Shown here: one piece after another, positions 1,810 through 14,331 of the stretch
Numbering within the stretch: the stretch's first letter is position 1
Layout: every line of letters begins with the position of its first letter
Source: Gammaproteobacteria bacterium
Lineage (GTDB): Bacteria > Pseudomonadota > Gammaproteobacteria > UBA5335
Reading direction: 5' to 3'
Assembly (NCBI GenBank): GCA_011620145.1
Contig: WOZT01000117.1
Coordinates: 1 to 14,331 of the forward strand
Length of the DNA: 14,331 nt
Made by a program: the position numbers and the translations under genes
Notes under the pieces: generated by a model
Database searches by the model: none
What the model was told of the DNA's origin: nothing
Seen by the model: only the letters and a program-made list of their open reading frames with translations

Positions 1810-2599
1810 ATGCGCAGTGAAGATCTCATCGCCTTGATAATCCCGATCACCTTCCTTGCGATGATTGCCATCGAATACTGGCTCAGCACGGGACGCGATT
1901 GGCCAGCGATCCCTTGGTGGCGAACCCAGGGCGCGTCATTCTTTGTGATGATGATGAGTATCAATGCGGTCCTGCCTTCCTGGGTGCCGCAGAAGATCGC
2001 CAGCCATCACCTGTTCGAAGCCTCGCGTCTGGGGTTTGCGGGAAGTGTTGTGCTCGGCTATTTGTCACTGTCGCTGGCCACCGCAACGCTGCATCGCGCC
2101 TATCATCGGTTTCCCGTGCTCTGGCGCTTCGTGCATCAGTTGCATCACGCCCCGCAGCGACTGGATGTCTGGGGTAGAGTTGTATTTACACCGTTGGAAG
2201 TCATCAACAATGTGTTGATTTCTTTACGTGGTCATGGTGTTCGTCTTGGGTCTGGATCCGGTGGCTGCGGCGCTCACGGGCTATGTCGCGGCCTTTTACG
2301 GCATGTTCCAGCATTTCAATGTCCGCACACCGGTCTGGCTGGGCTACCTGATTCAGCGCCCGGAATCGCATAGCATTCACTACTATCGTGGATTTCATGC
2401 CCATAACTACAGCGATCTGCCGCTCTGGGATCTGCTGTGGGGCACCTTCAGAAATTCGCGAGAGTTTAAGGTTGATGTGGGCTTTGAAAAAGCCGAGTCG
2501 CGACAGATTGGCGCAATGCTGTGCGGGCGTGATGTCAATGCGGCGATCCTCGGTAGCGGCAACCGCGGTCGGATTGACGTCGGGAGCAATCCGGCATGA
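1810..2599 (+). pseudogene. Sterol desaturase/fatty acid hydroxylase-family protein, interrupted by a +1 frameshift
   Basis: Membrane di-iron oxygenase family (sterol desaturase, C-5 desaturase, fatty acid hydroxylase type). The first part (from ATG 1810, GGGAGG at 1796-1801) has hydrophobic helices and His boxes H95-x3-H99 and H109-x2-HH(112-113). At about 2216-2225 (TTGATTTCTTTACG) homology passes to the frame one base later. Removing one T restores a continuous reading NNVLI-LYVVMVFVLG. The second part, to TGA 2599, carries FQHFN, HSIHYYRGFHAHNY and the family-typical LPLWDLLWGTF. All iron-binding His clusters survive, and the stop overlaps the next start by ATGA. The break is thus either a sequencing error in a T run or a very recent mutation. 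Without it the protein would be about 262 residues. Substrate is unknown; control by the adjacent TetR protein is likely. Confidence 0.82.
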
Positions 2600-3405
2600 G
2601 TGCACAAGGTCAGGAAGCGCAGTGTCTGGCGGATGAGATTGAAGCCCGCGCCTGCCGCGATCTCTATGCGGCCGCGCCACCACAATTTTGCGCCAGTGCC
2701 ATGACCATTGGCGGTGCCACTGCGCTGTGTCTGCCGTCCATGCCGATCAGCTATTTCAATCGCGTCATTGGCTTAGGCATGAGTGAGCCCGCAACCCAGG
2801 CTGCTCTCGACGCACTGGTTCATCACTATACTGCTGCTGGTGTCAAGGACTACTGGCTCCATCTGAGTCCGGCGGCGCGTCCTGGATCACTACCGGACTG
2901 GCTGGATGCGCGGGGTTTCAAGCTGGCGCCACGCCGCAGCTGGGCGAAGTTTCTGCGTGGCAGTGAACCTTTTCCGATGCCGAACACGGGTCTTGTCGTA
3001 CGCTGCGCCGAAGCTGCGGACTCAGGTCTGGTTGCGGATATTGTCTGCACGGCTTATGGGCTGCCCGGTTCATTTGCGCCCTGGTTTGCCAGTTTGACAA
3101 CCAGAACGGGATGGCGCGTGTTTTTGGCGATGAAAGATAGCCAGGCCATTGCCAGTGGCTCGCTCTACTGCTCGGGTGACACGGCATGGCTTGGTATCGG
3201 CGCCACGCTGCCTGAGTGGCGCAATCTCGGCGCACAGAGTGCCCTGATTGCCGCCCGTGTCATGGTCGCCCGGGACTGCCGTGTCGTTGCGACGGAAACC
3301 GGCGAGCCGATCGGGGAGGAGCCCAATCCATCACTGCACAACATCCAACGAGCCGGCTTTGTGCAGGTTTGTTCGCGGCTCAATTTTGCCGTGCCGAGGG
3401 TTTGA
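2596..3405 (+). CDS. GNAT-family acetyltransferase
   Basis: A 269-residue protein whose C-terminal half is a GNAT fold. The acetyl-CoA binding motif A region is LGIGATLPEWRNLGAQSAL (199-217), matching the family's beta4-(R/Q)xxGx(G/A)-alpha3 element. A later NPSLHNIQRAGF (244-255) matches the motif B pattern N-x-x-S-x-x-N-x-x-x-x-GF. The N-terminal half (1-130) resembles the degenerate first lobe of two-lobed GNAT proteins. The start ATG overlaps the desaturase stop (ATGA at 2596-2599), so the two genes are translationally coupled and probably share the TetR-controlled promoter. Acceptor substrate is unknown. Acylation of a lipid or small molecule tied to the desaturase is only a guess. Confidence 0.72.
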   Translation: MSAQGQEAQCLADEIEARACRDLYAAAPPQFCASAMTIGGATALCLPSMPISYFNRVIGLGMSEPATQAALDALVHHYTAAGVKDYWLHLSPAARPGSLPDWLDARGFKLAPRRSWAKFLRGSEPFPMPNTGLVVRCAEAADSGLVADIVCTAYGLPGSFAPWFASLTTRTGWRVFLAMKDSQAIASGSLYCSGDTAWLGIGATLPEWRNLGAQSALIAARVMVARDCRVVATETGEPIGEEPNPSLHNIQRAGFVQVCSRLNFAVPRV

Positions 3406-3598: not shown

Positions 3599-3686
3599 GC
3601 GCCGGGCAGGGTTGCTGACTATGGTGAGACAGTCGGATCCCACCTCGGATCGGCACGTAACGAGGCACACCCTACAGGAGGAACGC

Positions 3687-5237
3687 ATGGCGGCTAAAAC
3701 GGGATTTTGGGCGATCGCACAGAATTATCCCGATAAAACGGCGCTGGTGGATGATCACGGCAAGCCGATGAGCTTTGGCGAGCTCGATGAACGGGTCAAC
3801 CGCCTGTCCCACGGCTTGCGCGCCCTGGGGTTGCAGTATCGCGACGGCATCGCGATGTTGATGCACAACGACCCCGTGTGGATCGAGGCCTTTCTGGCGG
3901 CGCACCAGATCGGCCTGTACCTGACGCCCATCAACTACCATCTGACCGGCCCCGAAGTGGCCTACATCATCGGCAACTGCGAGGCCAAGGTGTTCATCGC
4001 CCATGAGCGCCATGCGGCTGTGGCCCTCAAGGCGGTGGAGGAACTGGGCTACGACCGCTCACGCTGTTTTGCGGTTGGAAAAATCCCCGGGTTTCGTGAT
4101 TACGAGGCGTTTCTGGCGGAGCATCCCGCCACCGCCCCCGAGGATCGCCAGGCGGGGACCCTGATGCTCTATACCTCGGGTACCACAGGCCGACCCAAGG
4201 GGGTGCGGCGCCCCTTGATGCCGGGCAATCCCGATGTGGTGGCCAGTCTGGCCGGCATGCTGGGCGCCCTGTTCCAGCTCAAGTCCGGCGCGGGCGTCCA
4301 TCTGGTGACCGGGCCGCTTTATCACGCCGCTCCTGGCGGTTTTGGCACCGCCTCCCTGCATCTGGGGCACAGCTTGGTGCTGATGGACCGCTGGGATGCC
4401 GAGGACACCCTGCGCCGGATCGAGCGCGAGCGGGTGACCTCCACCCATATGGTGCCCACCATGTTCCATCGCCTGCTGGCGTTGCCCGATGCGGTCAAGC
4501 GACGCTATGACGTGTCCAGCCTGCAGGCGGTGATCCATGGCGCCGCGCCCATCGGCGTCGAGTCCAAGAAGGCGCTGATCGACTGGTGGGGCCCCGTGAT
4601 CTTTGAATATTACGGCGCCACCGAAGGGGGCGGAACCATCGCCAATTCAGCGGACTGGCTCAAGAAGCCAGGGACGGTGGGCAAACCCTGGCCTGGCACG
4701 GAAATTCGCATCTTCGACGATGCGGGCCAGCCCGTGCCTGCCGGTCAGCCGGGCAATGTCTACATGAAATCCATGATTGGGGAGTTTGAATACTACAAGG
4801 ACCCGGCCAAGACGCAGGAAAGCCGCCATGGGGAATTGTTCACCGTGGGCGATATCGGCTATCTGGATGAAGACGGCTGGCTGTTCCTGTGCGACCGGGC
4901 CAAGGACCTGATCATTGCGGGTGGCGTCAATATCTATCCGGCGGAGATCGAGAAGGTGCTCATGGAGCATCCCAAGGTGGCCGATGCGGCCGTGTTCGGG
5001 ATTCCCAACGAGGAGTGGGGCGAGGAGGTGAAAGCCGTGATCCAAGCGGCCGACGGGGTGGAGCCGGGCCCGGCGCTGGCTGAGGAACTGCTGCGGTTCG
5101 CCACCGAACGCCTCGCCCGTTTCAAGCTGCCGCGGTCGATTGATTTCATCGCTGAACTGCCGCGCCTGGATACCGGCAAGCTCTACAAGCGCTACTTGCG
5201 TGATCCTTACTGGGAGGGCCGGAATCGGAAGATCTGA
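3687..5237 (+). CDS. AMP-forming acyl-CoA synthetase (fatty-acyl-CoA ligase)
   Basis: A 516-residue ANL-superfamily ligase that makes acyl-CoA from a carboxylic acid, ATP and CoA through an acyl-AMP intermediate. Motifs in order: P-loop YTSGTTGRPKG (162-172), A5 motif YYGATE (308-313), GDIGYLDEDGWLFLCDR (388-404), hinge and KDLIIAGGVNIYPAEIE (406-422), and the C-terminal catalytic lysine in TGK (K498). Start ATG 3687 is chosen for its AGGAGG (3678-3682) at good spacing; an in-frame start at 3612 has none. Length is normal for FadD-like ligases and it lacks a PCP or other fused domain. It is on the same strand as the monooxygenase operon but separated from it by 242 bases holding an own promoter. 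Its acid substrate is not predictable; activating acids derived from alkane oxidation is an inference from context. Confidence 0.9.
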   Translation: MAAKTGFWAIAQNYPDKTALVDDHGKPMSFGELDERVNRLSHGLRALGLQYRDGIAMLMHNDPVWIEAFLAAHQIGLYLTPINYHLTGPEVAYIIGNCEAKVFIAHERHAAVALKAVEELGYDRSRCFAVGKIPGFRDYEAFLAEHPATAPEDRQAGTLMLYTSGTTGRPKGVRRPLMPGNPDVVASLAGMLGALFQLKSGAGVHLVTGPLYHAAPGGFGTASLHLGHSLVLMDRWDAEDTLRRIERERVTSTHMVPTMFHRLLALPDAVKRRYDVSSLQAVIHGAAPIGVESKKALIDWWGPVIFEYYGATEGGGTIANSADWLKKPGTVGKPWPGTEIRIFDDAGQPVPAGQPGNVYMKSMIGEFEYYKDPAKTQESRHGELFTVGDIGYLDEDGWLFLCDRAKDLIIAGGVNIYPAEIEKVLMEHPKVADAAVFGIPNEEWGEEVKAVIQAADGVEPGPALAEELLRFATERLARFKLPRSIDFIAELPRLDTGKLYKRYLRDPYWEGRNRKI

Positions 5238-5247
5238 TCGTCCGTAC

Positions 5248-5264
5248 GAATGGCAAAACCATTC
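5248..5264 (+). terminator. Small hairpin after the acyl-CoA synthetase stop
   Basis: GAATGG-CAAAA-CCATTC is a perfect 6-bp stem with a 5-nt loop, 10 bases after the stop codon. It is followed by A-rich DNA (CAAAAATAAAGG) rather than a T tract, so as an intrinsic terminator it would be weak. It lies just before the monooxygenase promoter and may partly insulate the two units. Confidence 0.35.
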
Positions 5265-5285
5265 AAAAATAAAGGCCAAAGCCTA

Positions 5286-5314
5286 TTGAACGACCGTTTA
5301 ATTTGGCGTATACA
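5286..5314 (+). promoter_or_regulatory. Sigma70-type promoter of the copper monooxygenase operon
   Basis: TTGAAC (5286-5291), a 17-bp spacer, then TATACA (5309-5314). Each hexamer matches the consensus at four or five of six positions with ideal spacing. Transcription would begin near 5321, giving a leader of about 160 nt before pmoC. No sigma54 element was seen in this gap. Confidence 0.6.
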
Positions 5315-5320
5315 GGAGGT

Positions 5321-5479
5321 AGGGGCGCTGGATTCATCTCCAGAATCCCAGATAAGCATCATTAAGGCGCGAGGCGCACGGCTTCGACCCGTGATGAAGT
5401 AAACCAGGGGCAAAGACCCCGTGCCGGCAAACGTGGGCTTGCCCGCCGCCGGTCCATCGCAACAAGAGGAGACATAACC
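5321..5479 (+). promoter_or_regulatory. Long structured 5' leader of the monooxygenase operon
   Basis: The predicted leader contains four local hairpins: GGATTC (5330-5335) with GAATCC (5343-5348); CACGG (5377-5381) with CCGTG (5389-5393) around CTTCGAC; GGGG (5407-5410) with CCCC (5417-5420) around CAAAGA; and GGCAA (5426-5430) with TTGCC (5439-5443). It ends with the pmoC ribosome site GAGGAGA (5467-5473). It matches no riboswitch I know. Roles in mRNA stability or translation control are possible. Confidence 0.4.
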
Positions 5480-6280
5480 ATGAGTACCGTGATCAACCAA
5501 GCGGTTGTTGCGCCTGCGGCGACCGCCTCGGAAGCCCCCCGTCCACCCTGGCGCTTGGCGTTTACCATCGCCGCAATCGCGCTTGCTTTTGTGACGTTGG
5601 TGAAGTGGTATCAGCACACTTTTTCCTGGACCGTGGGAACGGATTCGTTTTCCCCCGAGTTTCAAGTCTATTGGATGAGAATCTTTTACGCCCAGATCAT
5701 TGGACTTCCGCTCCTGGGCGCCATCGGCGCGGCATGGCTCTGGCTGACCCGCGATCGGGATATCCAGAACCTTCCCGCCCGTGATGAATTGGCGCGGTTC
5801 TATGCCATGTTCAGCATTCTCGTGGTCGCGGCGATCGTGCTGATCTCGGCCTTGGGGCTGTTGACCGAAGCTGATGCGGCCTGGCATCAGGTCGTGGTGC
5901 GGGATACCGATTTCACCCCCACGCACATCTTTCTGTTCTATCTGGGGGTCCCCGCTGGATTGGGGGGATTGGTAATGGCTTGGATCTGGGTGCATACCCG
6001 GCTGCCTTATTTTGCCAATCGAGTTTCGCTGCCCCTGTCTCTTGCGATCATCGGCTTCATGATGGCCGGCCCCGTGGTGGCGTTCAATGAGTGGGCGCAT
6101 ACCTTTTTCTATGCCGAGGAATTGTTCGGCGCCCCGGTGCACTGGTTCTTCGTGCTGGCCGGGTTCTTTCTGGTGTTTCTGATTGGCTTTGTGATTCAGT
6201 GCGTACAACGTATGTATGAGCTGACCCGGGGTTATAGCCTGGAGGAGGTGGAGCGGGAAATGGGATTGACCAGTCGTTGA
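5480..6280 (+). CDS. pmoC: Copper membrane monooxygenase subunit C (PmoC/AmoC family)
   Basis: A 266-residue polytopic membrane subunit of the CuMMO complex (methane, ammonia or short hydrocarbon oxidation). Metal ligands of both known PmoC sites are present with family spacing. The CuC-type set is D132-x3-H136 followed by H149 in FTPTH (equivalent to Asp156, His160, His173 of Methylococcus capsulatus). The CuD-type set is N203, H207 in FNEWAH, and H221 (equivalent to Asn227, His231, His245). About six hydrophobic segments are visible (roughly 25-41, 66-88, 106-126, 148-170, 183-202, 222-242). The start is supported by GAGGAGA seven bases upstream. First gene of the operon, 157 bases before the A subunit gene. 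The A subunit, not C, is the usual phylogenetic marker, so the symbol is used for the family rather than for methane specificity. Confidence 0.95.
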   Translation: MSTVINQAVVAPAATASEAPRPPWRLAFTIAAIALAFVTLVKWYQHTFSWTVGTDSFSPEFQVYWMRIFYAQIIGLPLLGAIGAAWLWLTRDRDIQNLPARDELARFYAMFSILVVAAIVLISALGLLTEADAAWHQVVVRDTDFTPTHIFLFYLGVPAGLGGLVMAWIWVHTRLPYFANRVSLPLSLAIIGFMMAGPVVAFNEWAHTFFYAEELFGAPVHWFFVLAGFFLVFLIGFVIQCVQRMYELTRGYSLEEVEREMGLTSR

Positions 6281-6298
6281 CAGGCGATTGAAGGTCAA

Positions 6299-6341
6299 GG
6301 GGACGGATCGGCCATGAGGGAGCGCCGCCCGCTCCGTCCCC
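6299..6341 (+). promoter_or_regulatory. Intercistronic stem-loop between C and A subunit genes
   Basis: GGGGACGGA (6299-6307) and TCCGTCCCC (6333-6341) form a perfect 9-bp GC-rich stem. A competing inner hairpin, GGAGCG (6319-6324) with CGCTCC (6330-6335), uses part of the same right arm. No T tract follows, so attenuation, mRNA processing or 3'-end protection of the pmoC message fits better than full termination. The remainder of the 157-bp gap holds the pmoA ribosome site AAGGAAG (6424-6430). Confidence 0.5.
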
Positions 6342-6437
6342 CCAGGCTCTCAGGACTTGGTTGAACAGGCGGCCGCCTTTTCGGGCGGGTGCGTCCCTGC
6401 ATCGCGAAATGGTCAACAGATATAAGGAAGTACTGGC

Positions 6438-7226
6438 ATGTCCATTGAGTTAGGCTCCACTGAGCAAGGTGAGATTTCCCGGGCGCCGCGAGGCAAGGCG
6501 CTGAATAATGTTCAGGATCAGGTGCAGGCCTGGCGCAATGCCGACCTGTTTTTCTTTCCCCTCATTTCCATTCTCATCGGTGGCGCGGCCGTGTTTCTTT
6601 GTGCGCTTACCGTGGGAGATTGGAGCTATTGGATGGACTGGCGCGACCGGCGTTGGTGGCCGCTATTGACGCCACTCTTGCTGTTGGTGTTGCCCACTGT
6701 TGCCACGTATGCCTTCTGGAAGTACTTCAAACTTCCAGTGGCGGCGACGGGTTTGGCGCTGGGTTTCTGGCTATCCCAAATCATCAGTCGCTACGTGAAC
6801 TTCTATCTTTTTACCGCCTTTCCCATGAACTGGGTGATGCCGGAAGTGTGGATCGGGGCAGCGGTGGTGCTGGACGCGGTATTGCTGATTACCCGTAGCT
6901 TTGCGCTGACGGGTCTGGTCGGCGGCTTCCTGTTCGGCTTGTTGTTTTCGGCGATGAACTGGCCAGTGGTGGCGCCCATGCACATGCCCGTGCAACTGGG
7001 AGATACCGTCATGACGCTGGCCGATTACATGGGCTTCCAGTACATCCGCACCGCCATGCCGGAGTATGTGCGCATTATCGAGGCCGGCACCTTGCGCACC
7101 TTTGGCACCAACGTCGCGCCAGTGAGCGCTTTCGTCTCGGGTTTCTTCGCTATCCTGGTGTACTACGTTTTTATCTGGATCGGATCGAAAGGCGCCAATC
7201 CTGCCTGGCTCAAGAAGTTGGTTTAG
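6438..7226 (+). CDS. pmoA: Copper membrane monooxygenase subunit A (PmoA/AmoA family)
   Basis: A 262-residue integral membrane subunit of the CuMMO complex. Family hallmarks are GDWSYWMDWRDRRWWP (60-75), matching the region of the widely used A189 primer site; RYVNFY (118-123) and the following FPMNW (128-132); NWPVVAPMHMPV (174-185); and the near-invariant TAMPEYVRIIE...GTLRTFG (205-223) leading to NVAPVSAF. The start has AAGGAAG seven bases upstream. Residues differ from classical methane enzymes at many positions (for instance QLGDTVMTLADYMGF in place of the EYNGMLMSIADIQGY type seen in Methylococcus), which suggests a divergent clade. A tree is needed to place it among methane, ammonia, Pxm and hydrocarbon enzymes. 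Last base is 30 bases from the B subunit start. Confidence 0.95.
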   Translation: MSIELGSTEQGEISRAPRGKALNNVQDQVQAWRNADLFFFPLISILIGGAAVFLCALTVGDWSYWMDWRDRRWWPLLTPLLLLVLPTVATYAFWKYFKLPVAATGLALGFWLSQIISRYVNFYLFTAFPMNWVMPEVWIGAAVVLDAVLLITRSFALTGLVGGFLFGLLFSAMNWPVVAPMHMPVQLGDTVMTLADYMGFQYIRTAMPEYVRIIEAGTLRTFGTNVAPVSAFVSGFFAILVYYVFIWIGSKGANPAWLKKLV

Positions 7227-7256
7227 GTCAATCATTTGATTCAGGGAGGAATCGTT

Positions 7257-8585
7257 ATGGTGAAGTTTGGAAATGCCTGGTTGCGACGGGCCATGGGGTT
7301 GGCGCTGGCCTGTGTGATGTCCGGGATTTTGTTTGTGCCCCCGGTGTTTGCGCATGGCGAGATTGCTCAGATGGCAGGCATTCGCATGCGCACGATCCAT
7401 TGGTTTGATACTCAGATCGAACCGACCCAGGTCAAGGTCAATGACATTGTGACCGTGCGTGGAAAATTCAAGGTCTCCGAGAACTGGCCGGATTACGTGG
7501 CCAAACCAGAGCAGTGGGTGTTTTTGAATATCGGGGTGCCCGGCCCGACTTTCATTCGCCTGGACACTACAATCAATGGCATGCACCAGTACCAGTCCAC
7601 CGCGCTCAAGCGTGGCGAATTCTATGAATATGAGATCAAGCTGAAAGCTCGCGTTCCGGGAACCTGGCATGTCCATCCGCTACTCAATGTGTGGCAGGCG
7701 GGGCCGCTGGCGGGGCCGGCCCGATTTGTTCAAATCACCGGCGACAAGAAGGATTTCGTCAATACAGTGACCCTGCTCGATGGCGAAACGGTTGACGTGG
7801 AGCACTATGGGCTGGCCTCCATGTGGTCGATCCACTTGCTGTGGGTGGCCGTTGGTTTGCTGTGGGTAGCCTACTGGTTCCGTCATCTCCCGGTGATGAT
7901 GCGGCGTTATGTGGCCATCAAGATGTACGGGGAACAGGAAGCTGAGCGCCATCTCATCACCATCAAGGACATGGTGGTGAGCGCCGGTTTTGTGTTGGGG
8001 ATTTTGGGCTTAACCCTTGCGCTCATGATGTGGTCGCTGAACCGATATTCCATCACCATGCCGTTGCAGACGGGCAAGATAGAGGCGCCGGTGATCCCAT
8101 TGCCCGAGTCTCAGCAACAGGTGGATGTAAAAGTCCAGCATGCGAAGTTCGATCTGCCTTCGCGGCGCATGGATATGGCGTTAGAGGTGACCAACCGATC
8201 GGCGGAGCCGGTGCGGATTGGGCAATTCGTAACGGGGTATGCTCGCTTCATCGATGCCGCCGTAATCAAGGATGTGAAAGCGGATCGCTATGATCCCGTG
8301 GCGACAGATGGATTGCATAGCGATGTCACCTGGATCCAGCCGGGTCAGACCCAATTGGTCAACCTGACGGTGGCGGATGCCCTGTGGGGTGAGCAGCGTC
8401 TGACGGACATTGTGGCCGAGCCCAATCTGCGTTTTGCCGGCCTGTTGTTTTTCTACACAGCTGACGGCCATCGCCAAATTCGGGAAGTCGGCGCCCGGAT
8501 GACGCCGAACTTCCTGCCCGGCTATGTCCCGATCAATACCCATGGCGGCCATGTTGCCCTGGAGACAAGGGATTCCCTCAGCTGA
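7257..8585 (+). CDS. pmoB: Copper membrane monooxygenase subunit B (PmoB/AmoB family)
   Basis: A 442-residue subunit with two periplasmic cupredoxin-like domains joined by two membrane helices (about 189-208 and 239-261). Start ATG 7257 is chosen for GGGAGGA at 7244-7250; an in-frame TTG at 7236 lies upstream of that site. A signal peptide ends in VFA, so mature protein begins at H33, exactly as in M. capsulatus. With H138 and H140 of GTWHVH it forms the CuB site. H48 (RTIHWFD) is kept, but the second ligand of the bis-His site (His72 in M. capsulatus) is Lys72 here, a variation that is tolerated in other family members. The tail (about 425-442, with THGGH) extends past the second cupredoxin domain and makes the protein somewhat longer than the roughly 415-420 residues usual in methanotrophs. 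No further CuMMO gene such as pmoD follows. Confidence 0.95.
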   Translation: MVKFGNAWLRRAMGLALACVMSGILFVPPVFAHGEIAQMAGIRMRTIHWFDTQIEPTQVKVNDIVTVRGKFKVSENWPDYVAKPEQWVFLNIGVPGPTFIRLDTTINGMHQYQSTALKRGEFYEYEIKLKARVPGTWHVHPLLNVWQAGPLAGPARFVQITGDKKDFVNTVTLLDGETVDVEHYGLASMWSIHLLWVAVGLLWVAYWFRHLPVMMRRYVAIKMYGEQEAERHLITIKDMVVSAGFVLGILGLTLALMMWSLNRYSITMPLQTGKIEAPVIPLPESQQQVDVKVQHAKFDLPSRRMDMALEVTNRSAEPVRIGQFVTGYARFIDAAVIKDVKADRYDPVATDGLHSDVTWIQPGQTQLVNLTVADALWGEQRLTDIVAEPNLRFAGLLFFYTADGHRQIREVGARMTPNFLPGYVPINTHGGHVALETRDSLS

Positions 8586-8603
8586 GGTGAGCGCTATGAG
8601 CCC

Positions 8604-8642
8604 CTGTTCAGGTGAGGTCGCCTTGTGATTTCACCTGAACAG
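8604..8642. terminator. Perfect 12-bp stem between convergent pmoB and dxs
   Basis: CTGTTCAGGTGA (8604-8615) and TCACCTGAACAG (8631-8642) pair perfectly across a 15-nt loop, starting 19 bases after the pmoB stop. Flanking GAGCG (8589-8593) and CGCTC (8646-8650) can extend it across an internal loop. No T tract follows on either strand, so it may act with Rho or protect mRNA 3' ends. The rest of the 185-bp gap (8643-8770) shows nothing convincing. Confidence 0.6.
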
Positions 8643-8770
8643 AGGCGCTCCGGATCGTATCGCGTTTTGCGCAATATTCACGGGGGCAGGACTGACCAGC
8701 TTTCCATTGATCGTCGCAGCTGAGTTGCCCGTCTTCGTTGGGCAGAGTTGCGAGCAAGATAGTTGCAGAA

Positions 8771-10711
8771 TTAGCTGCGGCGACTGATGGCAGTGCTGGG
8801 AGGCAGCAGCCGGCGCAGGGCTGCGGCAATCCCGATGGCGTCCAGGCCACAGGCGCTGAGTAGCTCTTCCCGCGTCCCGTGTTCCAGGAAGTGATCCGGC
8901 AGGCCCAGATGCGTGACGGGCACACTCAGGCCGTGGCGGGCGAGGCACTCGGAGACGGCGCTGCCCGCGCCGCCGGCGACTGTGTTGTCTTCCACTGTGA
9001 CCAGTTGCGTATGGGTGCGGGCGAGTTCGATCACCAGGGCTTCATCCAGCGGTTTGATGAAGCGCATATTGACCACGGTGGCGCCCATGGGCTGGGCCGC
9101 CTCCAGCGCCGGCATCACCATGGCGCCGAAGGCCAAGACGGCGAGGCCTCGACCCGGATGCCGGATTTCGGCGCGGCCCAGGGGCAGGGCCGGGGCGTCG
9201 ACCTGGAACGGAATGCCGGCGCCGGCGCCGCGCGGATAACGCACCGCAACAGGCGCCTTGAGAGCCAGGGCGGTATTGAGCATGGCGCAACATTCGGCCT
9301 CCTCCGCCGGCGCCATGATCACCATGTTGGGGATGCAGCGCAGGAAGGAAAGATCGAAGGCGCCGTGATGGGTGGCCCCATCCTGTCCCACCGGCCCGGC
9401 CCGGTCGATCGCAAACACCACCGGCAGGTTCTGCAGCGCCACATCATGGATGAGCTGGTCGTAGGCACGTTGCAGAAAGGTGGAATAGATGGCCACCACG
9501 GGGCGCATCTCCTCGCAGGCGAGCCCTGCCGCCAGCGTCACGGCATGCTGTTCGCAGATGCCCACGTCGTAATAGCGCTCCGGAAAGCGCTTTTCGAATT
9601 CCACCAGGCCCGAGCCTTCGCGCATCGCAGGCGTGATGGCGACGATTTGGGGGTCCCGGGCCGCCGCCGCGCAGATCCAGGCCCCGAATACCTGGCTGTA
9701 GGTGGGCTTGGCGCCCGGTGTGCTGGCAGGCAGCGTGCCGGTATGGGGGTCGAAGCGGGTGACGCCATGCCAGGCGACTGGGTCGTTTTCGGCGGGTGCG
9801 TAGCCTTTGCCCTTGCGGGTGACGACATGCAGAAACTGGGGTCCGGGGCGGTCGCGCAGGTTGCGCAGGGTATCGATCAGGACGGGCAGGTCGTGGCCAT
9901 CGATGGGGCCGATGTAATTGAAGCCCATCTCCTCGAACAGGGTGCCAGGGGCAACCATGCCTTTCACATGTTCCTCGGCGCGTCTGGCGAACTCCCATAC
10001 GGGGGGAACATGGCGCAGGACCTTTTTCCCCTCCTCGCGGATGCTGGTGTAGAAATGCCCCGAGAGGATGCGCGCCAGGTAATTGGACAATCCCCCCACG
10101 TTCGGTGAGATGGACATCTCATTGTCGTTCAGGATCACCAGCAGGTCGGCACGCAGGTGGCCAGCATGGTTGAGGGCTTCATAGGCCATGCCGGCGGTCA
10201 TGGCGCCATCGCCGATGATGGCGGCCACCCGGCGGCGCTCTCCGCGCGCCCGGGCCGCCAGCGCCATTCCCAGGCCGGCGCTGATCGAGGTGCTGGAATG
10301 CCCGACGCCAAAGCTGTCGAATGGGCTTTCTGCGCGCTGGGGGAAGGGCGCCAGGCCATGCAGCTTGCGGATGGTGGGCAATGCCGCGCGGCGGCCGGTC
10401 AGGATCTTGTGTGGATAGGTCTGGTGGCCCACATCCCACACCAGCCGGTCACGGGGCGTGTCGAACAGATAGTGCAAGGCAATGGTGAGTTCCACCGTGC
10501 CCAGGTTGGCGGCGAAATGACCGCCGGCCTCACCGATGGTCTGGATCAGGTAGGCGCGCAGTTCCGCCGCCACCGCAGCCAGCGACGATTCGGGCAACAG
10601 GCGCAGCGCTTCAGGGGAATCGATCTGCGCCAGCAACGAGGGAAGTGGGCTCATGGCACCGGGCGTCGTTGGGGAAAGCAGTGGATTATCAGCCTGCGAC
10701 GCCTCTGTCAT
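8771..10711 (-). CDS. dxs: 1-deoxy-D-xylulose-5-phosphate synthase
   Basis: First enzyme of the MEP isoprenoid pathway: thiamine-diphosphate-dependent condensation of pyruvate with glyceraldehyde 3-phosphate. Features on the 646-residue product: [14 protein letters not shown] near 63-76 (His for substrate), [17 protein letters not shown], the ThDP/Mg motif GDG (167-169) with the partner Asn in [25 protein letters not shown] with catalytic Glu387, and [15 protein letters not shown]. Start: ATG 10711 has a weak AGG upstream and lies 34 bases after the ispA stop. ATG 10654 would give a length nearer the E. coli enzyme (620) and begin closer to the conserved region, but lacks a ribosome site, so the first 19 residues are uncertain. 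Third gene of the xseB-ispA-dxs operon common in gammaproteobacteria. Confidence 0.95.
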
Positions 10712-10745
10712 CAAGGATAGCCTGTGGCGCGCTGAATGGGCAGCT

Positions 10746-11648
10746 TCAGCAATGCCGGTTCAGCAGTTCATCGGCGAGCGCACGCAAGGGATCGGCAGCC
10801 GCGCCGAAGGGCGCCAATTCGTCCAGTGCTTGCTGATGCAGTTGGGCTGCGCATTGCTGGGCAGCAGCCAAGCCCATTAATTGCGGATAGGTGGCTTTGT
10901 CATGGGCCAGATCGGCGCCTTGGCGTTTACCCAGGGTCGCCGTGTCGGCTGTGAGATCCAGGATGTCGTCCCGGATCTGGAAAGCCAGTCCCAGCGCCGC
11001 CGCACAACGGTCCAGTCCCGCGTATGCGGGTGCATCTTCGGGCAAGGCCAGATCCGCAGCCAGTCGCACCGCTGCGCAAATCAGGGCGCCGGTCTTCTGG
11101 CGGTGGATGGTTTCCAATTGGCGTTCATCAATCTGCCCGGCACTGACGGCCAGGTCCATGGCTTGCCCCCCCGCCATGCCCAAGGAACCACAGGCGCGGC
11201 TCAACGTGCGGATCTGGCGCAGTTGCTGCGCAGCTGTTGGGCCATCCGTCAGGGGACGCGAGAGCAATTCGAAGGCCAGGCACTGGAGGGCATCCCCGGC
11301 AAGGATGGCGGTCGCCTCGTCGAATGCGCGATGCGTGGTGGGGCGGCCTCGGCGTAAATCGTCATCATCCATGGCCGGCAGGTCATCATGCACCAGGGAA
11401 TAGGCATGGATGAATTCCACTGCGCAGGCCGCATCATCCACCCAGTCCAGGGGAATGCCCAGCAGACTGCCGGTGGCGTAACACAAGGCTGGGCGCACCC
11501 GTTTGCCACCTCCCAGTACGGCATAGCGCATGGCGGCATGCAGTTTTTCAGGTACCACATGGGCCGGTGGCAGGCGGGTTTCCAGCGCGGCCTCAGCCCG
11601 GCTGCGCCACTGGCCCAGGACGGGACACACGGGTGATGCGGCATTCAT
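10746..11648 (-). CDS. ispA: Farnesyl diphosphate synthase (geranyltranstransferase)
   Basis: A 300-residue short-chain trans-prenyltransferase that builds farnesyl diphosphate from IPP and DMAPP/GPP in the cytoplasm. Motifs: GGKRVRP (47-53), the first Asp-rich motif DDLPAMD (88-94) followed by [19 protein letters not shown] (160-166), and the second Asp-rich motif FQIRDDILD (223-231), then [16 protein letters not shown]. Length is standard for the bacterial enzyme. Its ATG overlaps the xseB stop in an ATGA arrangement, so translation is coupled; dxs follows 34 bases downstream, placing two isoprenoid enzymes in one transcript. Product chain length (C15) is inferred from family similarity. 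Confidence 0.94.
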
Positions 11649-11914
11649 CCCGCAGGATCCGATTCGAATGGCGTCAAGGGCGCTTCAGCGCTCGGCTGGG
11701 TCAGGGCCATCACACGCTGTTCAGCCTGTTGCAGGGCTTGCTGGCAACGACGTGTCAGCTGCACGCCGCGCTCGAAGCGCTCCAGGGACTGTTCAAGGGT
11801 GAGTTCGCCCCGCTCAAGCTGTTCCACCAGGGTTTCCAGCTCTTCGAGCGCGGTTTCGAAATTCAGTTGTTCGGTGTTCACACGGCACGGCAGATCACAG
11901 GATGGGGGCTTCAT
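11645..11914 (-). CDS. xseB: Exodeoxyribonuclease VII small subunit
   Basis: An 89-residue helical protein with the XseB signature FETALEELETLVEQLERGELTLE followed by SLERFERG and a coiled-coil tail ending in QAEQRV. With the large subunit XseA (not in the window) it forms exonuclease VII, which degrades single-stranded DNA from both ends. The ATG at 11914 has GAGG a few bases upstream (TGAGGCAGC). First gene of the xseB-ispA-dxs operon, which overlaps ispA by 4 bases. The first ten or so residues extend beyond the conserved core. Confidence 0.93.
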   Translation of the reverse strand: MKPPSCDLPCRVNTEQLNFETALEELETLVEQLERGELTLEQSLERFERGVQLTRRCQQALQQAEQRVMALTQPSAEAPLTPFESDPAG

Positions 11915-12176
11915 GCTGCCTCAGCGGTCGCGCAAAATCCAGTCTGCGATGCGCGTTGAAAGGGCATCGATCGGAGTGATCGCGGGGGCAGTTGCACGCA
12001 ACCGTCACGGGATCCAACTCGGGAACCGACAGCGGCTATCCAGGGTCCCATGCGTGACCCGTAAAGCGTGCCCAAGGATGATTGCGCTCCAGCGCGATGG
12101 TCTTCAGGATATGCTGAGGGACGAAACTTTAAAACATGATGATCGTAAAGATTTTTCTAAAGGTACGGTGAGCGCC

Positions 12177-13064
12177 ATGACTTGGATGAAACGCATTTTT
12201 CTCTTCGGCTTGACCAATATCGCGGTGATCGTGCTGTTGACGATCGTCATGCGTGTGCTGGGCCTGGATCAGGCCGTTGCGATACGGGGTGGAAATCCCG
12301 TTGCGCTACTTGTTTTTGCTGCCGTCATGGGGATGGGGGGTTCCTTCATTTCTTTGGCGATGTCCAAATGGATGGCCAAGCGCTTCATGGGGGTCCGTGT
12401 GATCGAGCAGCCTGGCAGCGCCTTGGAACGCTGGCTGGTGGACACGGTGGCGCGCATGGCACGCGATTCGGGGATCGGCATGCCGGAGGTCGGGATCTTC
12501 GATAGCCCCGATCCCAATGCGTTTGCCACCGGGATGTCGCGCAACAACGCGCTGGTGGCGGTCAGTACCGGGTTGCTGCAGCGCATGCGGCCGGAGGAGG
12601 CCGAAGCGGTGCTGGGCCATGAGGTTTCCCATGTGGCCAATGGGGACATGGTGACCCTGGGCCTGCTGCAGGGCGTGCTGAATACCTTTGTGATTTTCCT
12701 GTCCCGCATCATTGGCATGGTGGTGGACAATGCCCTGTCCCGTGGCGAAGAGCGCCGCGGCTCGGGTGTCGGGTATTTCGTGACGGTGATTGTGGCGGAA
12801 ATCGTCCTGGGCCTGTTGGCCACCGTCATCGTGATGGCGTTCTCGCGCTGGCGTGAGTTCCGCGCGGATGCAGGGGGCGCCGGGCTCACCAGTCGCGCCG
12901 CCATGATTGGCGCCCTGGAACGTTTGCGCGAAGCCCACGAGCCGGCTCAGATGCCCGATCAACTGCGGGCCTTTGGCATCCGCAGCGGCGGCGGCATGAT
13001 GCGTTTGTTCATGAGTCATCCGCCGCTGGAGGAACGCATCGCCGCCTTGCGCGCTGCGGGCTGA
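12177..13064 (+). CDS. htpX: Membrane zinc metalloprotease HtpX
   Basis: A 295-residue M48B peptidase of the inner membrane that degrades misfolded membrane proteins. Two N-terminal hydrophobic helices (about 8-28 and 41-61), the zinc motif HEVSH (148-152), and a downstream ligand Glu in REFRAD (E227) are all present, with two further hydrophobic segments (about 159-182 and 199-222). The C-terminal MSHPPLEERIAAL is typical. ATG 12177 is chosen; ATG 12186 (giving MKRIFLF) is an alternative that aligns with the E. coli start, and neither has a strong ribosome site. In E. coli the gene is induced by envelope stress through CpxR and by heat. In the 262-bp gap shared with xseB no clear CpxR or sigma32 site was recognised. 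Confidence 0.93.
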   Translation: MTWMKRIFLFGLTNIAVIVLLTIVMRVLGLDQAVAIRGGNPVALLVFAAVMGMGGSFISLAMSKWMAKRFMGVRVIEQPGSALERWLVDTVARMARDSGIGMPEVGIFDSPDPNAFATGMSRNNALVAVSTGLLQRMRPEEAEAVLGHEVSHVANGDMVTLGLLQGVLNTFVIFLSRIIGMVVDNALSRGEERRGSGVGYFVTVIVAEIVLGLLATVIVMAFSRWREFRADAGGAGLTSRAAMIGALERLREAHEPAQMPDQLRAFGIRSGGGMMRLFMSHPPLEERIAALRAAG

Positions 13065-13086
13065 CGGGTGTGTCGTTTTGATGCCT

Positions 13087-14331
13087 TCAGGCCCGCTGCG
13101 CTTGCGGTGGCGGGCGGGGCGTCCGTTCAGGGGAGCGCAGCACCACCTCCGGTTCCTGCACATAATGCCCCTGGAGATAGTGCACGCCCAATTGCCAGAG
13201 CACGGCAAGCGCATTCGCGTTTTCCACATGCCCGGCGATGACGCGGATGTCATGGCGCTCGGCATGGGCCACAATCTGGCGAATACGGCCCTGGGCGTCC
13301 TGGCTTTCGGTCACTTCCTGCAGTAGCCCCGGTGCCAGCTTGAGGAATTGGGGTGAGACATGGCTCGCCAGCTGCAGCGCGTGCGGACTGTGTCCGAAAT
13401 GGTCGATGGCCAGGGGGTAGCCTTGCTCTTTCATCATCTGTGAGAGACCGAGCACGCTTTTGAGGTTGGATTCGACCTGCTCCTCGGCAATCTGCAGGTA
13501 GAGTGGTGCGGGCGTCGCAGTTTTCGGAAGATGCGCTTTCAGCCAATCCACTGTATCTGCGGCCACGATACTGGCGGCCGATAGCTTCACGAACAGCCCT
13601 TTTTGACTGGGGTCTCCCCGTTGATCATCCAGCACGCCCAAGGCGTGACTGAGTACCCAACGATCCAGTTCTGTGGCGATGCCGGTTCGTTCCGCAGCGG
13701 GCCAGAAGTCGGTCGGCGAGAGCTCCTGTCCCTCCTCGTCCATCATCCGCAAACGCACCTCGTAATATTCCGCCGTGCTGCCATTGAGCGAAGAAATGGG
13801 CTGGTAGACCAGCCGTAACGCATTGTGAGCCAGGGCCCGGCGCAACTGCTCCGCCCAGTTGGCGTCGGCCTGCTGGGTGGCCGCGAGGGGGTTGTGCAAT
13901 TTGGCCAGGCCCACCTGCAGGCGTGCGCTGCGTGCGTCCTGGGCGGCCCGTTCGGCCTCCAGCAGCGCCGGCTCCAGTTCGACATCCTCTGTTCCAAGCC
14001 ATTCCCTCAGGCCAAAGATCGCGCGCACCACCCGGCTTTGCGCGCCAATCTCAACGACCTGCCGTGCCAGTTGTGCTTGCCATTGCAGTGCCCGATTCTG
14101 GGCTTCCTTGGTGTTCGACGCGGCGTAGACAGCGGCCACCCAGAAATCCCGCAGTCGAACCGCGACGCCGCCCTCAGGCAGCAGAGCCTGGAGTGCCTGG
14201 GCATAGGCCTGCGTTGCAGCCTCGCAGGCGACATAGCCCACACTGGGCAGTAGTTCCGGTAGCTCGTCCAGTTGCGCGGCAAGCAGGAAGCGGGAACCGG
14301 TTGCTGGAACGGGCTGTGCCGCCAGGCGATG
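13087..14331 (-). CDS. Degenerate GGDEF-EAL protein, FimX-like c-di-GMP effector (5' end outside window)
   Basis: The frame is open to the right edge, so at least 414 C-terminal residues are seen. The first part resembles a GGDEF domain with the active-site loop lost (VRLRDFWVAAV at about 14157-14125 instead of GGDEF). The second is an EAL domain in which nearly every catalytic position is changed: EVRLR for EALLR (13761-13747), FVKLS for FVNLS, LAIDHFG for xxLDDFG, APGLL for the DxxFV region, and AGHVE for AEGVE. The late core LGVHYLQGHYVQEP is kept. This double degeneration is characteristic of FimX-type proteins, which bind c-di-GMP and control type IV pili rather than degrade it. Naming is by architecture only. 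It is convergent with htpX across a 22-bp gap. Confidence 0.82.
   Translation of the reverse strand, partial: HRLAAQPVPATGSRFLLAAQLDELPELLPSVGYVACEAATQAYAQALQALLPEGGVAVRLRDFWVAAVYAASNTKEAQNRALQWQAQLARQVVEIGAQSRVVRAIFGLREWLGTEDVELEPALLEAERAAQDARSARLQVGLAKLHNPLAATQQADANWAEQLRRALAHNALRLVYQPISSLNGSTAEYYEVRLRMMDEEGQELSPTDFWPAAERTGIATELDRWVLSHALGVLDDQRGDPSQKGLFVKLSAASIVAADTVDWLKAHLPKTATPAPLYLQIAEEQVESNLKSVLGLSQMMKEQGYPLAIDHFGHSPHALQLASHVSPQFLKLAPGLLQEVTESQDAQGRIRQIVAHAERHDIRVIAGHVENANALAVLWQLGVHYLQGHYVQEPEVVLRSPERTPRPPPQAQRA

Follow-up and report, generated by a model that had tools for sequence, protein, structure and literature searches.

Which substrate does a copper membrane monooxygenase (CuMMO) act on when its genes stand outside the gene setting of a methanotroph or a nitrifier? 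The question is raised by a 14,331-nucleotide stretch of contig WOZT01000117.1 (the window), which is contig 23 of a 1.79 Mb gammaproteobacterial metagenome-assembled genome (MAG; GCA_011620145.1, here G000) that is 86.5% complete. It carries an xmoC-xmoA-xmoB operon at 5480-8585, with three intact open reading frames (ORFs) in C-A-B order, all on the plus strand. An earlier note on this DNA, made from the letters alone, had proposed a hydrocarbon monooxygenase in a gammaproteobacterium, and the tree of the A and B subunits, the absence of Fae and HAO, and the placement of the genome in Macondimonas support that proposal. We consider it probable that the operon encodes a gammaproteobacterial hydrocarbon-type copper monooxygenase, whose hydroxylation of short n-alkanes would feed beta-oxidation through a pyrroloquinoline quinone alcohol dehydrogenase (PQQ-ADH), an aldehyde dehydrogenase, and an acyl-CoA ligase. 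We infer the alkane substrate, its chain length, and the joining of these steps into a single pathway from the genes present, their ligands, their linkages, and the absence of Fae and HAO.

The adjacent predicted C, A, and B subunits, together with their copper ligands, place the operon in the CuMMO superfamily. All three proteins match their Pfam models far above the cut-offs (XmoC to AmoC, PF04896, 208 bits against 26.7; XmoA to AMO, PF02461, 244 bits against 27.5; XmoB to Monooxygenase_B, PF04744, 394 bits against 22.7), and each aligns along most of its length to solved subunit chains of particulate methane monooxygenase (pMMO) and ammonia monooxygenase (AMO) in the PDB, the top match being in every case a pMMO chain and not an AMO chain. 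The CuB ligands in XmoB are complete by alignment to PmoB/AmoB with a column check (the His that opens HGE directly after ...VFA, and WHVH), as are, in XmoC, the CuC ligands (D..WH...H within TEADAAWHQVVVRDTDFTPTH) and the CuD ligands (N...H...H within NEWAHTFFYAEELFGAPVH). The residues were read off the alignments, at positions that we take to be the ligand positions of the M. capsulatus pMMO. Both the intact C-A-B gene set and the full set of CuB, CuC, and CuD ligands that the earlier note had claimed are thus borne out.

The note had also held that the A subunit departs from the methane type, and had named a PmoA/PmoB tree as the check. In a midpoint-rooted A+B tree of 23 loci, the window locus joins the corresponding operons of its family (locus 1), and then the family's second xmoAB (locus 2) and the more distant genome G018, in a 12-row clade supported at 100/100. 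Outside this clade are the methanotroph-like rows (G036, G144, and G256), an ammonia oxidizer (G329, with three hao genes), and the actinobacterial hydrocarbon monooxygenases (HMOs). G036 is methanotroph-like in having Fae and in scoring 408 bits to a solved PmoA chain, and G144 and G256 group with it. The window XmoA is 37–38% identical to the methanotroph-like rows and 35% identical to the row of ammonia-oxidizing bacteria (AOB), so that the divergence holds and XmoAB falls in neither a methane nor an ammonia clade. A larger XmoA tree, built by a quick method from 146 rows that include two PDB pMMO rows and no identified AMO row, places methanotroph PmoA and actinobacterial HmoA away from the window, as in the A+B tree, and the window's side of it holds mostly unnamed environmental proteins; 2 of the 129 XmoA proteins, which were under 240 residues, were left out. 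Two of its rows were considered as AMO candidates and rejected, their top match being a pMMO chain, and the AOB row is present only in the A+B tree. Among the NCBIfam models, XmoA is below the AmoA cut-off (252 vs 290), XmoC is below the AmoC cut-off (222 vs 319), and all three subunits are under the general CH4/NH3 monooxygenase cut-offs. As a side observation, two divergent CuMMO operons (L081, L082) occur in the 2.3 Mb genome of G351, and one of them is basal to the Macondimonas-type clade.

The host lineage agrees with this placement. We compared six genomes of the family (G000–G005), all of them MAGs, of which G000–G003 form the genus and G004 and G005 represent two other genera. A match to AMO/PmoA was found in 8 of the 56 genomes searched as relatives, namely the window's own genome, three of the same genus, two of the same family, and the more distant G018 and G036, and in none of three order-level sister genomes. 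P0162, a protein named as subunit C of Ca. Macondimonas diazotrophica, has zero tree distance to a protein of G003, which belongs to the same genus as the window's genome; the window's genome is therefore congeneric with this oil-spill bacterium, and NCBI taxonomy puts Ca. Macondimonas in the Gammaproteobacteria. In addition, P0004, an incomplete XmoA that carries the name Ca. Macondimonas sp. (one of the short proteins left out of the XmoA tree), is 94% identical to the window XmoA over 76% of its length. The protein searches behind these comparisons cover all 68 matches in one case, 120 of 152 in a second, and 120 of 671 in a third, 11 named ones of which were used in an XmoC tree. Ca. M. 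diazotrophica is described as encoding a particulate hydrocarbon monooxygenase (pHMO), and Ca. Macondimonas is characterized as consuming hydrocarbons (PMC8941013; statements from this and the other papers cited here come from passages of each). MAG KhS_21, from Persian Gulf sediment, is listed as UBA5335 (PMC8166890). The operon is a further member of the published pHMO group.

What was found around it and elsewhere in the family is what defines a pHMO setting: a CuMMO with a ligase gene as neighbor and with PQQ-ADH and aldehyde dehydrogenase genes elsewhere, in a family without Fae or HAO. The FadD-like ligase scores 245 bits to Pfam AMP-binding and 64 bits to AMP-binding_C, and its best NCBIfam model is the PRK12406 acyl-CoA synthetase, at 528 bits under a cut-off of 701; the gene, which the earlier note had called adjacent, lies directly 5' of xmoC and is found upstream of xmoC in all four genomes of the genus, the window's own counted. 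Fae is absent from the six family genomes and, among eight genomes searched, is present only in the methanotroph-like G036. HAO (PF13447) is likewise absent from the six and from G018, and overall from 9 of 11 genomes, with G329 and G144 positive. In the window, no match to methanol dehydrogenase or HAO was found among the proteins scanned with Pfam and NCBIfam, in agreement with the neighborhood first described.

A PQQ-ADH scores above the family cut-off in six of eight genomes, with fragments or weak matches only in G000 and G002. In G000 only about the first 150 residues are assembled before the gene runs into a contig end, and PF13360 finds there only a 419-residue, BamB-sized frame. The G003 copy, on which the enzyme type was judged, scores 760 bits to the quinohemoprotein alcohol dehydrogenase 1yiq, 386 to the quinoprotein ethanol dehydrogenase 6zcv, 340 to methanol dehydrogenase 4mae (the best of its type), and 316 to XoxF 6dam; by these scores the family's strong PQQ-ADH is predicted to be of the quinohemoprotein type and not a methanol dehydrogenase. 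An aldehyde dehydrogenase, its family named on the G003 copy, lies beside the PQQ-ADH in all three contexts examined (G000, G001, and G003). Neither the tree nor the genome-wide search for methanotrophy and hao genes that the note had suggested refutes its proposal. In the route that we propose, XmoCAB would convert a short n-alkane, most likely somewhere in C2–C6, to a primary alcohol, the quinohemoprotein PQQ-ADH would convert the alcohol to an aldehyde, the neighboring aldehyde dehydrogenase would yield the acid, and the ligase encoded just upstream of xmoC would form the acyl-CoA that enters beta-oxidation.

A number of points weigh against this assignment. At its level of completeness, absences in G000 itself are weak, and the only C1 genes searched were Fae and the PQQ dehydrogenases (TIGR03075, and PF13360 in the window's own genome). 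In G004 and G005, which represent the other two genera of the family, the ligase gene does not adjoin the operon. XmoB exceeds the NCBIfam AmoB_BACT equivalog cut-off (453 vs 336). The window XmoA is only 34–36% identical to the actinobacterial HmoA rows, and the HMOs form a separate clade (100/100). In M. chubuense NBB4 and Rhodococcus sp. ZPP the AMP-binding gene is downstream of the operon, whereas in the window it is upstream, and because the NBB4 ligase is only 29% identical to the window's, the pairing of ligase and HMO looks like a shared habit rather than common descent of the cluster. The xmoCAB allele of the window is mosaic, a caveat taken up below. We know of no experimentally tested enzyme in the window's clade. 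Finally, the family may use other alkane enzymes, as a UBA5335 MAG is reported to have alkB/alkM and xylM (PMC8166890).

The alternative that survives best is an enzyme for alkenes, aromatics, or other hydrophobic substrates, or a mainly co-metabolic one, instead of an enzyme of growth on alkanes. CuMMO-bearing Haliea assimilate ethylene (PMC6215863), and the best-scoring model for the G003 aldehyde dehydrogenase is one for benzaldehyde dehydrogenase, although the score is under the cut-off (354 vs 550). With a quinohemoprotein alcohol dehydrogenase and an acyl-CoA ligase present, however, n-alkanes fit better, and we regard this alternative as unlikely. A methane monooxygenase of an unrecognized methanotroph, with unusual methanol and formaldehyde routes, would be more surprising still. 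The C-A-B order and full ligand set are those of pMMO, at a modest fork (89/85) the clade, G351a included, falls on the side of the methanotroph-like rows and not of the AOB, and CuMMOs are described as promiscuous (PMC6215863). Against methane stand a position outside the methanotroph-like clade at 37–38% XmoA identity, Fae in 0/6 family genomes, the quinohemoprotein type of the PQQ-ADH, and a neighbor that is an acyl-CoA ligase. As for an ammonia monooxygenase of a nitrifier, which we hold to be very improbable, the AmoB_BACT score of XmoB and AMO PDB chains that match it at up to 276 bits face HAO in 0/6 family genomes (the controls, G329 and G144, being positive), XmoA and XmoC under the AMO cut-offs, a place apart from the AOB row, best PDB matches to pMMO, and a nitrifying bioreactor with Macondimonas-like rpoB in which putative pHMO genes were undetectable after active-cell sorting (PMC8941013). 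The methanotroph and nitrifier readings were rejected on the absence of Fae and HAO, the PQQ-ADH type, and the A+B tree. For surveys, this means that an amoA/pmoA-like gene can come from an oil-degrader lineage and not only from methane or ammonia oxidizers, and that the AmoB_BACT model, passed by the XmoB of a family without HAO, is a likely cause of misannotation.

Beyond the hydrocarbon-type operon, the family carries a second xmoAB and a surplus of xmoC genes. A and B genes number two each in G000–G004 and one each in G005 and G018; a third B match in G002 seems to come from a single B gene divided between two contigs. One hydrocarbon-degrader rpoB is reported to track two different putative pHMO genes in abundance (PMC8941013), which agrees with the presence of two xmoA genes in these genomes. 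C genes number three in G000 (one cut at a contig end), five plus a 40-residue fragment in G001, three plus two partial in G002, six in G003, six in G004, three plus one partial in G005, and nine in G018, where all candidates were scored (the class-wide sample scored 7 of 14 candidates, with seven matches). Between two and five xmoC genes per family genome stand alone. Locus 2 is without a C ORF in all five genomes that have it, in stretches of 10.9–19.9 kb, some of them cut by a contig end, and no AmoC match was found on the locus 2 contigs. Downstream of locus 2 there is a D-like gene in G001–G004 and a multicopper oxidase in G001–G003; upstream, G001–G003 have a PQQ-like beta-propeller protein and an alpha/beta hydrolase.

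The solo genes are conserved in what can be read of them. The CuC and CuD ligand sets are kept in 46 of the 46 XmoC sequences read (drawn from the loci fetched, minus three duplicates), and 28 of these are solo, 20 from the family and 8 from G018. One solo C has orthologs in 6/6 family genomes and another in 4/6. The ratio of nonsynonymous to synonymous divergence (dN/dS) is 0.045–0.16 for 7 solo C pairs and 0.02–0.09 for 10 operon and locus 2 gene pairs, rough values, as several dS values are above 1. The solo xmoC genes are under purifying selection. At one place in G003 (L062), two solo xmoC genes point apart beside a pimeloyl-CoA-dehydrogenase-like gene pair.

Two other origins for the solo genes were rejected. 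Divergent operons missed by the A model are contradicted by B counts that equal the A counts, and by the lack of any A or B ORF in the solo C stretches (ORFs of at least 120 residues tested; several stretches cut by a contig end). Lone pmoC genes are carried by phages (PMC7674155); against a phage location here, the scanned neighbors, which are not every neighbor, include purT, recQ, moeA, and acyl-CoA dehydrogenases. In a class sample of 369 genomes, CuMMO genes occur in 11, the same 11 for A and C, and outside the group the C:A ratios are 1:1 in G036, G220, and G256, one partial to one in G181, 3:2 in G144, 5:3 in G329, and 3:2 in G351 (one C partial). The contrast in C surplus is clear but comes from few, non-independent lineages.

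According to Khadka et al. (2018), xmoAB in bacteria invariably share a cluster with xmoC, and single xmoC genes exist as well (PMC6215863). Locus 2 departs from the first statement, while the surplus of C is in itself already known, and the C-less AB together with surplus C is a new layout of a known theme. In the literature searched we did not find this combination for a bacterial putative alkane oxidizer, and the original Macondimonas description may report some of it. One tentative explanation, which we lean against, is a modular CuMMO, in which the AB of locus 2 would borrow its C from a separately encoded and separately regulated XmoC set, whose members would serve as interchangeable catalytic subunits for different alkanes, copper, or oxygen conditions, and the C-A-B of the window would be the only fixed combination. 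It would fit the 20 family solo C genes that keep their ligands, the purifying selection, the ortholog in 6/6 genomes, and the C-less AB in 5/5. Against it, G005, in which no locus 2 was found, also has solo C genes, and which subunit holds the CuMMO active site is disputed, with proposals for A and B too (PMC10030591). Mutagenesis of a hydrocarbon monooxygenase is cited in the same paper as locating the essential metal center in subunit C, and a surplus of C genes could accordingly bring a surplus of active sites. The family offers a natural test of the substrate-setting subunit, with two AB versus up to six C, and one AB versus nine C in G018.

The window itself has a mosaic structure. In 250-base steps against G001, xmoCAB is 73–91% identical and the fadD body 98–99%, and from dxs onward identity is mostly 95–99% with a dip to 72–86% at 11850-12349 (95% for dxs to htpX); the stretches compared are 3676-8566, the fadD-xmoCAB block, and 8771-14331. 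Elsewhere, the genome is 81% identical to G001 at locus 2 and 97% on three other contigs, two of them with solo C genes. Because fadD and the right flank are 98–99% and 95% identical to G001, they belong to this lineage. The genes that flank the block in G000 are not those that flank it in G001 and G003. Two explanations would fit these alignments equally: the operon was exchanged with a divergent donor and the block relocated, or the contig is chimeric.

Coordinates of the operon, its neighbor and signals in the window, and loci of the second xmoAB and solo xmoC genes
Feature	Position or locus	Strand	Remarks
AMP-binding acyl-CoA ligase, FadD-like	3687..5237	+	directly upstream of xmoC
likely xmoC ribosome-binding site, AAGAGGAG	5464..5471	+	read from sequence
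xmoC	5480..6280	+	C subunit; PF04896, CuC and CuD motifs complete, PDB PmoC matches
likely xmoA ribosome-binding site, AAGGAAG	6424..6430	+	read from sequence
xmoA	6438..7226	+	A subunit; PF02461, identities, tree
likely xmoB ribosome-binding site, GGGAGG	7244..7249	+	read from sequence
xmoB	7257..8585	+	B subunit; apparent signal peptide, CuB complete, PF04744
strong hairpin, no U-tract	8598..8650	.	minimum free energy -44.1 kcal/mol for 8586-8670, z -6.2
second xmoAB (locus 2)	G000:C83 (L022 8561-10722; L002), L023, L025, L027, L029		
28 solo xmoC	L054, L055, L057-L069, L084-L094, L096		

Several details of the window complete the description. The ligase ORF is listed from 3612, with a likely start at ATG 3687, and the ligase protein is 98% identical to its G001 counterpart. 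The xmoB ORF is listed from TTG 7236; the position of the ribosome-site-like sequence makes ATG 7257 the likely start. Such sequences precede all three xmo starts, as the earlier note had said, whereas its claim of a promoter of the operon's own found no support: a scan for sigma-70 promoters in 5100-8800 gave 0 sites against a shuffle mean of 1.9, other promoter types not being excluded. Position 5286, where that note began the operon, is within the non-coding leader before xmoC. The hairpin sits in the 185-base gap between the convergent xmoB and dxs, and could possibly mark a transcript end. An Rfam search gave 0 matches, and the fold of the C-A spacer is unremarkable (z -0.29).

The absence of pmoD also stands, as no window ORF clusters with the D-like gene found behind xmoB in related genomes. 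That gene is common to pHMO and methanotroph-like operons (L032 4391-5026, L030 7790-8485, L033 13348-13908), with 29% identity between the L032 and L033 copies, and no Pfam or NCBIfam model matched the scanned L032 and L030 copies at E 0.001; we presume it to be of the AmoD/PmoD kind. Further upstream in the window, a fatty acid hydroxylase-like gene at 1810-2599 is in two overlapping frames (1810-2373 and 2228-2599), the frameshift being either real or assembly-derived, and 2596-3405 encodes a 269-residue protein with no Pfam match.

Compared with known systems, the window operon shares family, subunits, and copper ligands with pMMO (solved chains 1yew/3rgb and 6cxh, which we take to be from M. 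capsulatus and M. alcaliphilum), and differs from it in an XmoA identity of 37–38% and in a family without Fae, in which no methanol-type PQQ dehydrogenase was seen. A surplus of C genes is also known from Nitrososphaera viennensis AMO, where C genes outnumber A and B and some lie apart: six AmoC homologs accompany a single amoA and amoB, and different AmoC are suggested to give different activity profiles (PMC10030591). N. viennensis is an archaeal ammonia oxidizer, however, whereas here a bacterial putative alkane oxidizer keeps one complete C-A-B operon. Cycloclasticus, a different genus that we liken by description and not by sequence, resembles the family in that each genome has multiple divergent copies of CuMMO, together with a pqq-adh that is not of the methanol type; on n-pentane, phmo followed by this pqq-adh is proposed, and phmo subunits a and b were seen by proteomics (PMC12510462).

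The actinobacterial HMOs of M. chubuense NBB4 and Rhodococcus sp. ZPP resemble the window in C-A-B order, in a non-methanotroph host, and in an AMP-binding gene nearby, and differ in the small ORFs that follow xmoB. ZPP is described as an oxidizer of ethane and propane that is reported to use pHMO for propane (PMC8941013). The M. dioxanotrophicus HMO operon has no AMP-binding gene in the stretch seen, so that two of three actinobacterial HMO loci have one. Closest of all is the pHMO of Ca. M. diazotrophica (G003; L028 for locus 1 and L027 for locus 2), which belongs to the same genus, has the same fadD-xmoCAB order, and is 90% identical to the window in XmoA, 86% in XmoC, and 77% in XmoB. The alleles have diverged, and where G003 and G001 have a galE-type gene next to the cassette, the window has dxs. 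Like the window's genome, G003 also has a second, C-less xmoAB and extra xmoC genes.

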